In this document: piece by piece, positions 36,892-41,138 of the stretch
Layout of the letters: each line of letters starts with the position of its first letter
How positions within the stretch are numbered: the stretch's first letter is position 1
Origin: Rubricella aquisinus
GTDB taxonomy: Bacteria; Pseudomonadota; Alphaproteobacteria; Rhodobacterales; Rhodobacteraceae
Direction: 5' to 3'
Assembly (NCBI RefSeq): GCF_014199445.1
Contig: NZ_JACIJS010000001.1
Coordinates: 186,001-250,000, forward strand
Length of the DNA: 64,000 nucleotides
Program-made: the position numbers and the translations under genes
The notes under the pieces: model-generated
Told to the model about the DNA's origin: nothing
Database searches by the model: none
What the model saw: only the letters and a program-made list of their open reading frames with translations

Positions 36892-37545
36892 CTAGCGGGG
36901 CTGTTTATCCGCAAACAACCAGCGGCAAAACAGGGCCGCGATTATCGCTGCCACGCATTGCATCACCACAAACATCGGCACGTCCAGGGGACGAATGCCG
37001 GAAAACGTATCCGTGAATCCGCGCGCAATCGCCACCGCCGGATTGGCAAAGGAGGTGGACGCGGTGAACCAGTAGGCCGCCGTGATATAAAGGCCGACCA
37101 GCCACGGCACCGCAGCAGGGGCCGACCGCAACCCGCCGAAAATCACGAAGACAAGGCCAAAGGTCGCCACCAGCTCTGCCCACCATTGGCTGAGACCCGT
37201 GCGCATCGTGGTGGAGGCCGCGAAGGGTGCGAGGTCGAACATCAGATGCGCCACGATGGTGCCCGCGATGCCGCCCGCGACCTGTGCCGCGATATATTTG
37301 ACCGCCAGCCCGCCCGCGATCTGCCCGCGCACCAGAAACGCCAAGGTCACCGCCGGATTGAAATGCGCCCCCGACAGGGGCCCCAGCACGGTGATCAGGA
37401 CCACGAGGATCGCACCCGTGGGCAGCGTGTTGCCCAAGAGGGCAAGGGCCGTGTCATCGGTCAACCGCTCCGCCATGATGCCGGAGCCGACCACCGTGGC
37501 GACCAGCAGCAGGGTGCCCAGCGCCTCTGCCACCAATTCTCTCAT
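36892..37545 (-). CDS. aqpS: Aquaglyceroporin AqpS-like (arsenite channel)
   Basis: Six-helix MIP channel (217 residues) with two NPA boxes: HFNPAVTLAF and FANPAVAIARG. In Sinorhizobium meliloti aqpS replaces an arsenite pump, letting arsenite made by ArsC leave the cell down its gradient. ATGA overlap with arsC (37542-37545) supports the same role here. Neither an arsB/acr3 pump nor an arsR regulator is next to it. Confidence 0.88.
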   Translation of the reverse strand: MRELVAEALGTLLLVATVVGSGIMAERLTDDTALALLGNTLPTGAILVVLITVLGPLSGAHFNPAVTLAFLVRGQIAGGLAVKYIAAQVAGGIAGTIVAHLMFDLAPFAASTTMRTGLSQWWAELVATFGLVFVIFGGLRSAPAAVPWLVGLYITAAYWFTASTSFANPAVAIARGFTDTFSGIRPLDVPMFVVMQCVAAIIAALFCRWLFADKQPR

Positions 37546-38021
37546 GCGAATTCCGCCGCGATCCGTTTCAGGGTGGGGGCGAGCGTGGCGGCAGTGGGTT
37601 TGGCCGCGATCAACGCGTCGATCCGTGCAGCGAGCGCCTGATGCGTGCTGGCATAGGCTGCGCGCTGCACATCGCGCTGCCCGGTCACGGCAGCAGGATC
37701 GGGCAGGCCCCAATGGGCGGTGGACGGATTGCCAAGCCAAAGCGGGCATGCCTCGCCCGCGGCATTGTCACAGACGGTGATGATCCCATCCATCCGCACG
37801 GCGTCGGGGCCGCTGAATTCATCCCAGCTTTTTGAGCGATAGCCTGTCGCGGGGTATCCCTGCGCCTTGATCACCTCCAGCGCGAAGGGTTGCACGGCCC
37901 CGGTCGGCATACTGCCCGCCGAATAGCCGCGAAACGCCGCCCCGCCGCGCCCGTTCAGCGTGGCTTCGGCAAGAATTGAGCGCGCGGAGTTGCCCGTGCA
38001 CAGGAAAAGGATACGCAACAT
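37542..38021 (-). CDS. arsC: Arsenate reductase (low-molecular-weight phosphatase type)
   Basis: Reduces arsenate to arsenite (159 residues). The P-loop CTGNSARS (Cys8-x5-Arg14) begins the LMW-PTP fold, and VCDNAAGEACPLWLGNPSTAHWGLPDPA is characteristic of thioredoxin-coupled ArsC. ATG 38021 is preceded by AAGG. Paired with aqpS by translational coupling. Confidence 0.92.
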   Translation of the reverse strand: MLRILFLCTGNSARSILAEATLNGRGGAAFRGYSAGSMPTGAVQPFALEVIKAQGYPATGYRSKSWDEFSGPDAVRMDGIITVCDNAAGEACPLWLGNPSTAHWGLPDPAAVTGQRDVQRAAYASTHQALAARIDALIAAKPTAATLAPTLKRIAAEFA

Positions 38022-39120: not shown

Positions 39121-39545
39121 GAGTGCAGCACCTCCCGCGCACTGCCCATCACGCGCGGCAGATCATCCGCGATATGCAACCACGGCAGCGCGCTGTCGGC
39201 ATGGCAATGGACCGTGGGCGCAAGACTGCCCGCCGCGTCCAGCACACCGAGGGGGACATAGATTTGATCAGGCAAATAGCTGAACCATGAGGCAAGGGCT
39301 GACCCGCAGCGCCCGCAATGCCAGCGCTCCACATCGTCAGACATCTTGAGATGGGTCGCCGCATCCAGATACGTCACATCCGCTGCCGCGAAAGCAGCAA
39401 AGGCGGCCACCGGTGCCCCGGTCAGCCGCCTGCAATCGGTGCAATGGCAATAGGCAGCCGTTTGCGGAGCCGCGTCGATCTCAAACCCGATCGCCCCGCA
39501 ATAACAACGCCCTGTCAGTGGCCCGGTGTGCGGCTTAGACGCCAA
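39117..39545 (-). CDS. GFA-family (glutathione-dependent formaldehyde-activating-like) zinc protein
   Basis: Small zinc protein (142 residues) with three cysteine pairs: RCYCGAIGFE, CHCTDCRR and WHCGRCGS. The family fold binds zinc, and despite its name most members have no shown activity on formaldehyde. The start is TTG 39545, inside the end of nfuA, and no in-frame ATG or GTG replaces it before the first cysteine pair. Coupled to nfuA and tsaB. Confidence 0.85.
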   Translation of the reverse strand: MASKPHTGPLTGRCYCGAIGFEIDAAPQTAAYCHCTDCRRLTGAPVAAFAAFAAADVTYLDAATHLKMSDDVERWHCGRCGSALASWFSYLPDQIYVPLGVLDAAGSLAPTVHCHADSALPWLHIADDLPRVMGSAREVLHS

Positions 39546-40095
39546 CCGGGCGGACTTCGGTCACTTCCGGGATGTAATGGCGGAGCAGGTTCTCGATCCC
39601 CATCTTGAGCGTCATCGTAGAGGACGGGCACCCCGCGCAAGCGCCTTGCATGTGCAGATAGACAACGCCGCGATCAAACCCGTGGAAGGTGATGTCGCCA
39701 CCATCCTGCGCCACGGCGGGGCGCACGCGGGTGTCGAGCAGGGTCTTGATCTGCCCCACGATCTCTCCATCCGGGCCATCATGCTCGGCATGGCCAACGG
39801 CGCCTGCATCGCCTTCGATGATCGGTGCGCCGGACTGGTAATGCTCCATGATCGCGGCAAGGATCGCGGGCTTGATATGCGCCCAATCGACCGCGTCGGT
39901 TTTGGTGACGGTCACGAAATCGGGGCCAAAGAACACACCAGAGACGCCCTCCACCCCAAAGATACGACCCGCAAGCGGGGAGGCCGCAGCCGCCTCAATG
40001 CTCGGGAAATCTGCCGAGCCGCTCTCCATCACCGTTTGACCGGGGAGGAATTTCAGCGTCGCGGGGTTCGGAGTGGCTTCGGTTTGAATAAACAT
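39535..40095 (-). CDS. nfuA: Fe-S cluster carrier NfuA (NifU-like)
   Basis: Iron-sulphur scaffold/carrier (186 residues). The N-terminal Nfu domain (MFIQTEATPNPATLKFLPGQTV) is followed by the NifU domain with GACAGCPSSTMTLKMGIENLL, whose CxxC ligates a bridging cluster. A candidate Irr box lies 65 bases upstream of the ATG, fitting iron control of Fe-S genes. Confidence 0.94.
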   Translation of the reverse strand: MFIQTEATPNPATLKFLPGQTVMESGSADFPSIEAAAASPLAGRIFGVEGVSGVFFGPDFVTVTKTDAVDWAHIKPAILAAIMEHYQSGAPIIEGDAGAVGHAEHDGPDGEIVGQIKTLLDTRVRPAVAQDGGDITFHGFDRGVVYLHMQGACAGCPSSTMTLKMGIENLLRHYIPEVTEVRPVGV

Positions 40096-40160
40096 CTGGC
40101 AGACCTCTATCTAAGTTGTCCCATATTTGGCCCTGCTGCGCGCCGGAATCAAGCACCCTC

Positions 40161-40177
40161 TTTAGAATTGTTCTAAA
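40161..40177. promoter_or_regulatory. Irr-type iron control element between nfuA and a CDF exporter
   Basis: TTTAGAA-TTG-TTCTAAA is a perfect 7+3+7 inverted repeat. It matches the alphaproteobacterial iron control element bound by Irr, as I remember it. It is placed 55 bases before the plus-strand CDF gene and 65 bases before nfuA, so it could control both. Confidence 0.75.
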
Positions 40178-40232
40178 AGTGATCGGTGCTGCGTGATTGC
40201 AGCCCTCCGCCTGCCGCTTTACGACTAGGGCC

Positions 40233-41138
40233 ATGCAACACCGCAGTCAAAAGATCACGCGCACGGCTCAGATCAGCATCCTGATCGGGGTCGCTGTTCT
40301 GTGCATCAAGCTGTCGGCCTATGTCGCGACCGGCAGTGTCGCGGTGCTGTCGGATGCGCTGGAGAGTGTGGTCAACGTGCTTGCCGCACTCTTGGCGCTG
40401 TTTGCGGTACGCGTCGCACAGCGCCCGGCGGACGCCAACCATCCCCATGGGCATGAGAAGGCCGAATACCTCGCCGCGATTGTCGAGGGGGCGCTGGTGT
40501 TGGCCGCGGCCATTCTGATTCTGCGTGAGGCGATTGTCGCCCTGCTCAATCCCGCGCCAGTGAGCCTGCCGCCCATCGGCATGGCGGCCCTTGTGCTGGC
40601 CACGATCCTCAACCTTGTCTGGGCGCGGGTGCTGATCCGGCGCGGCACCACGCTCCGCTCCCCCGCGCTGAAAGCCGATGGTCACCACCTCAACACCGAC
40701 GTGATCACGACAATCGGCGTGGTGGCGGGGCTTGGGCTTGCCATTGCGACAGGCTGGTATTGGATTGATCCGGTGCTGGCGATCGCGGTCAGCATTCATG
40801 TGCTGGCATCGGGCTACCGGATGGTGCGCAGCTCCCTCGCCGGGTTGATGGATGAAACGGTGGATGCGGGCTCTCTGGAGGAGATCGAGCAGGTGGTGGC
40901 ACAGCACCTTGGCCCCGCGCTGGAGGCACATGACCTCAAGGTCCGCCCCCTTGGCCGGGGCCTTGCCGTTGAGATGCACCTCGTGGTGCCGGGCCGGATG
41001 AGCGTGCAGGACGCGCATGTGATCTGCGACCGGATCGAGGACGCGCTGGCCCCGCTCGTCCATGGCGGGGATGTGCTGATCCATATTGAGCCAGCACCCC
41101 ACGCGAAGGGCGCGGATACGATGCTGTTTCAGGGATAG
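40233..41138 (+). CDS. Cation diffusion facilitator (FieF-like) metal exporter
   Basis: Inner-membrane divalent metal/proton antiporter (301 residues), with about six helices in the first 210 residues and a cytoplasmic ferredoxin-like C-terminal domain. Metal residues are seen in SDALESVVN (helix 2) and DGHHLNTDVITT (helix 5, HxxxD), with HPHGHEKAEY between. The Irr box just upstream suggests iron or manganese as cargo. ATG 40233 begins the conserved region. Confidence 0.9.
   Translation: MQHRSQKITRTAQISILIGVAVLCIKLSAYVATGSVAVLSDALESVVNVLAALLALFAVRVAQRPADANHPHGHEKAEYLAAIVEGALVLAAAILILREAIVALLNPAPVSLPPIGMAALVLATILNLVWARVLIRRGTTLRSPALKADGHHLNTDVITTIGVVAGLGLAIATGWYWIDPVLAIAVSIHVLASGYRMVRSSLAGLMDETVDAGSLEEIEQVVAQHLGPALEAHDLKVRPLGRGLAVEMHLVVPGRMSVQDAHVICDRIEDALAPLVHGGDVLIHIEPAPHAKGADTMLFQG

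Follow-up and report, generated by a model that had tools for sequence, protein, structure and literature searches.

A perfect palindrome of the Irr type stands between two divergent genes of Rubricella aquisinus, nfuA for Fe-S assembly and a gene for a CDF metal exporter, and the locus raises the question of whether this box governs both genes or only one of them. The initial annotation took it as a box common to the two, through which low iron would shut both. The stretch of DNA analyzed, referred to here as the window, is 64,000 nucleotides long and was compared with genomes of the same family and of the wider class. Our preferred reading, which rests on sequence comparison and to which we give a probability of roughly three in four, is that the palindrome is an ordinary Irr operator of nfuA, and that the exporter is a lineage-specific neighbor with its own promoter. 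The features at the center of this question are listed below.

40161 to 40177, no strand: perfect palindrome of the Irr/ICE type, TTTAGAA-N3-TTCTAAA, known from the sequence read directly and from conservation on the nfuA side.
39535 to 40095, minus strand: nfuA, Fe-S scaffold/carrier, with Nfu_N and NifU domains and a CAGC motif near the C-terminus.
40233 to 41138, plus strand: CDF metal exporter with Cation_efflux and ZT_dimer domains and an EN-HD metal site (probably Mn2+ and/or Fe2+).

The exact letters at 40161-40177 are TTTAGAATTGTTCTAAA, and the perfect TTTAGAA-N3-TTCTAAA reported in the initial annotation is present letter for letter. Its placement midway between divergent genes is also correct: the distance from the palindrome is 65 nt on the nfuA side and 55 nt on the CDF side, measured to the gene start and to the ATG at 40233, respectively. 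With up to three mismatches allowed, two such sites occur in the window, where 100 shuffles predict 0.21, and 40161-40177 is the sole perfect match within it. The whole genome (3.24 Mb in 23 contigs) contains two sites with at most one mismatch, both perfect, one in the nfuA/CDF intergenic region and one before iscR; the reversed-pattern control gave none. The relaxed pattern TTAGAANNNTTCYAA recovers the same two sites, with one control match on one strand. A chance origin of the palindrome at 40161-40177 is ruled out by the window shuffles and the empty genome control. At up to two mismatches the genome has five sites against four in the control, so that counts by themselves lend no significance to the three two-mismatch sites. 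On its letters, the 17-bp palindrome is real and of the Irr type.

Conservation of the box was followed upstream of nfuA in related genomes. The family of the compared genomes, which we take to be Rhodobacteraceae from gene content, has nfuA in 145 of 149 genomes. The window protein resembles known NfuA Fe-S carriers in its Nfu_N and NifU domains and CAGC motif, and differs from the NfuA equivalog TIGR03341 in scoring 41.8 bits against a cut-off of 269.35, with a match that spans the C-terminal part only. An exact pattern of the box, 45-75 nt, and the nfuA start occurs in 99 of the 149 genomes; the reversed control of this pattern matched no genome. Among the best 30 nfuA loci, the window's included, the 130 nt upstream contain the box with three mismatches or fewer in 28 cases (0, 1, 2, 3, 4, and 8 mismatches in 3, 11, 12, 2, 1, and 1 loci, respectively). 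Only three of 3000 shuffled upstream regions reach three mismatches, and none has fewer. A larger set of 52 distinct upstream regions, obtained from 74 loci after removal of identical ones, includes loci fetched for having the box, so that box frequency in it is biased. A same-strand Usp-like open reading frame precedes nfuA in 39 of these 52 regions, one representative of which belongs to PF00582. The box therefore usually lies between two genes that run in the same direction, which argues that it serves nfuA.

Most relatives (loci L058 and L104, for example) have a co-oriented Usp gene, and not an exporter gene, as the immediate upstream neighbor of nfuA; this Usp gene is absent from that place in the window genome.

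Since a strict sigma-70 consensus scan found no promoter on either strand, the promoters of nfuA and of the CDF gene were placed by conservation, the former as given below.

40124 to 40152, minus strand: probable nfuA promoter, TTGATT (40152-40147), 17 nt, CAAATA (40129-40124), by analogy with the TTGAC-N-CATATC of relatives.

In the relatives, the box is followed, mostly after 2-4 nt, by TTGAC and then by CATATC or CATATA, which together form the promoter. Fifty of the distinct upstream regions carry the box with three mismatches or fewer; TTGA begins 2-4 nt after it in 42 and is lacking in two. The box in the window ends 8 nt upstream of the putative -35 element, and the gap is 1-6 nt in the other 47 measurable cases. 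Against the operator reading stands that this gap is the largest among the measurable upstream regions and that the nfuA -35/-10 pair is weak. The shift amounts to about half a helical turn and may reflect a change of use, or equally drift. The reading of the palindrome as an nfuA operator is drawn from its sequence, from the presence of an Irr gene, and from the conservation, across the family, of a box immediately before the nfuA -35 element.

The absence of an Irr gene from the genome had been named in advance as an observation that would refute the initial reading, and such a gene is present. Irr is encoded at L005 1435-1869, next to fabA, and scores 199.5 bits against a cut-off of 150 (NF045678) and 194 bits against a second NCBIfam cut-off of 170; the idea that Irr is missing was rejected on these scores. 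The Fur family has two matches in the genome (L005 and L006), Irr and a Zur-like protein of 130.3 bits that falls below its 167-bit cut-off and is encoded beside zinc-uptake-like genes; no Fur or Mur was found among these Fur-family matches. Across the class, Irr exceeds its cut-off in 154 of 289 genomes, and in all four Rhodobacteraceae members of that sample. The box together with nfuA, scanned for at a fixed form and at a distance of 45-75 nt, occurs in four of the 289 genomes, all four of them Rhodobacteraceae. As Irr (154) and the nfuA start motif (181 of 289) are both far more widespread, the combination is best described as a family trait.

The imperfect match between the occurrence of the box and that of Irr across the class could also mean that the palindrome is recognized by another regulator. 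This would agree with gel shifts in Rhodobacter sphaeroides, in which Irr failed to shift the iscR region in spite of the box predicted there, according to the available sections of PMC3413700 and PMC6956336, so that a box of the Irr type is no proof of binding. However, the sequence is of the described Irr type, the iscS-internal site of R. sphaeroides that Irr does bind in vitro is alike (PMC6956336, in the part available), and the sole other Fur-family protein found is the Zur-like one mentioned above. We regard recognition by a regulator other than Irr as very improbable.

The second perfect box of the genome, at L002 1501-1517 (C2:202101-202117), lies 75 nt upstream of iscR, where it overlaps the presumed -10 element (TTGACA-17-TAGAAA). 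An alpha/beta hydrolase gene is divergent to this box. One of the two-mismatch sites, at L004 1501-1517 (C2:200861-200877), lies inside the nifS/iscS-like gene downstream of iscR. A like two-mismatch site is present about 1.15-1.26 kb downstream of the iscR start in four of ten distinct iscR loci (L004, L049, L066, and L052, the window's own genome included), and a fifth locus, L045, has a less similar one; some of the ten loci may end before that point. The iscS-internal site was retained despite its control-level frequency on two grounds: a similar site is bound by Irr in R. sphaeroides, at the internal promoter that occupies this place in iscS, and similar sites recur among the iscR loci as just described.

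The comparison with R. sphaeroides also bears on the direction of control. As far as the available text of PMC3413700 and PMC6956336 goes, the boxes of R. sphaeroides at mbfA, at ccpA, and within iscS (P3) are palindromes of the same type as that of the window, and those of ccpA and P3 precede the transcription start by about 40-50 nt, as inferred for nfuA in the window. The two genomes share an Irr-like site in iscS, and a box before iscR is present here too. A difference is that the R. sphaeroides sources, as available, do not mention nfuA as a target of Irr; in the present genome it is, together with iscR, the clearest predicted target. In those sources, iron genes of R. sphaeroides, isc-suf among them, are induced by low iron, and more strongly when Irr is absent, so that Irr does no more than damp the induction (PMC3413700, PMC6956336), which makes the earlier expectation that low iron shuts both genes too strong; by this analogy, "damped" fits better than "shut". 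At low iron, loss of Irr raises the expression of ccpA about 2-fold; the box of this gene is located some 40 nt ahead of its start site (PMC3413700, available part). On this analogy, Irr would bind the nfuA box at low iron and lower or limit nfuA transcription. With further boxes at the iscR promoter and probably inside iscS, Irr would tune Fe-S assembly.

The geometry at nfuA also lends itself to the opposite direction, in which Irr, seated beside the -35 element, would be an activator of nfuA at low iron and not a repressor. The box abuts the -35 element on its upstream side in nearly all relatives, and a site so placed is typical of activators. Loss of irr lowers the expression of many R. 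sphaeroides genes (PMC3413700, in the sections available), and a reference title indicates that E. coli nfuA is needed under iron starvation. Yet R. sphaeroides ccpA has a similarly placed, Irr-bound box, and the increase of its expression when Irr is missing at low iron points to repression (PMC3413700, as above). We consider activation of nfuA unlikely.

The exporter side was followed in the CDF group of the window gene. At an E value of 1e-40 or better, 82 of 394 family genomes have a member of this group, the window genome among them. Upstream regions of 48 homologue loci (29 and 19 further) were read. The window protein is 42-53% identical to these homologues, so orthology is approximate. 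None of the 48 has the box with three mismatches or fewer in the 300 nt upstream, the closest being four mismatches in two loci, and none has nfuA within about 1.5 kb on either side. What the homologues share is a TTG-17-TA pair shortly before the start, the counterpart of which in the window is the following.

40197 to 40225, plus strand: probable CDF promoter, TTGCAG (40197-40202), 17 nt, TACGAC (40220-40225), 7 nt before the ATG; its match to consensus is weak.

The pair occurs in 25 of the 48 homologues, against a mean of 0.93 and a maximum of 4 in shuffles, and spacers of 16 and 18 nt in place of 17 occur in two and one of the 48. In a set of 30 CDF loci that includes the window, 19 have the pair, and 18 of these loci are also among the 25. 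The palindrome ends 19 nt before the putative CDF -35 element with no overlap, and its center is at about -63 relative to a putative start site. A shared TTG-17-TA pair with the box outside it argues for an independent CDF promoter, and transcription of the exporter would then proceed from its own promoter, the -35 element of which starts 19 nt beyond the box.

The claim of a box common to nfuA and the exporter gains no support from the homologues, none of which has either the box or a nearby nfuA, and the exporter's own putative promoter speaks against it. Judged from these sequences, the exporter is most likely a lineage-specific neighbor that is not controlled by Irr, or is so only incidentally. 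Because the homologues are of such limited identity and the genus is represented by one genome, the window's own, Irr control of the exporter keeps some share of the probability. In that case, Irr bound between the two promoters would reduce both Fe-S assembly and the export of Mn/Fe when iron is low. The box is only 55 nt from the CDF start and is displaced from the nfuA -35 element (the 8-nt gap) toward a more central position, and the metal site of the exporter belongs to a type linked mainly to Mn and Fe2+ (PMC5703985, available part). The empty upstream regions of all 48 homologues weigh against such joint repression, as does a center near -63 of the putative start site, which is outside the range where a simple repressor blocks polymerase. 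Joint repression of both genes through one operator is, in our estimate, improbable. Another arrangement would have an ancestral Irr operator of nfuA captured by a newly placed Mn/Fe exporter, with Irr near -63 acting as a switch on Fe-S assembly and export, either in concert or in opposite senses. It is suggested mainly by the shift of the box from the nfuA -35 element by about half a helical turn, and we hold it to be distinctly unlikely.

A search for Rfam elements (Mn riboswitch or other known RNA) gave no matches in 20 CDF loci (L010-L029 of L010-L039), and a nearby element of this kind was rejected for those loci. By inspection of the neighbor clusters, no conserved iron or manganese gene stands beside the CDF genes of relatives, and the contig search for CDF relatives of the window gene returned three distant loci only.

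The cargo was approached through the metal site. Glutamate (E) and asparagine (N) in TM2 and histidine (H) and aspartate (D) in TM5 are present in all 32 aligned sequences, the window protein and 31 homologues. The EN-HD clade 6 includes rhizobial EmfA. This clade, that of Cubillas et al. as cited in PMC5703985, has the same E-N/H-D site as the window protein, and its members are linked mainly to Mn and Fe2+ and also to Zn and Cd, in the part of that source available. The best CDF equivalog model is MntE (NF052621), at 339.6 bits against a cut-off of 500, so the window protein is not a member by cut-off. Iron or manganese as the cargo, as the initial annotation had it, is made plausible by the EN-HD site and is likely on that ground, while the box lends the assignment no support.

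Elsewhere in the window, at 36892-38021 on the minus strand, an aquaporin-type channel-like open reading frame lies next to a low-molecular-weight arsenate reductase-like one, as judged by eye. The two are perhaps an arsenic resistance pair.

The locus is a case in which guilt by adjacency is corrected, as the box informs on nfuA and says nothing firm on the exporter. No naming of nfuA as an Irr target was found in the literature searched, as far as its available text extends; Rodionov et al. 2006, the likeliest place for such a prediction, was outside its scope, and no priority is claimed. For the Rhodobacteraceae, nfuA emerges as a candidate family-wide Irr target beside the iscR-suf cluster, and the fixed geometry, with the box abutting the -35 element, frames the question of whether Irr represses or activates nfuA.
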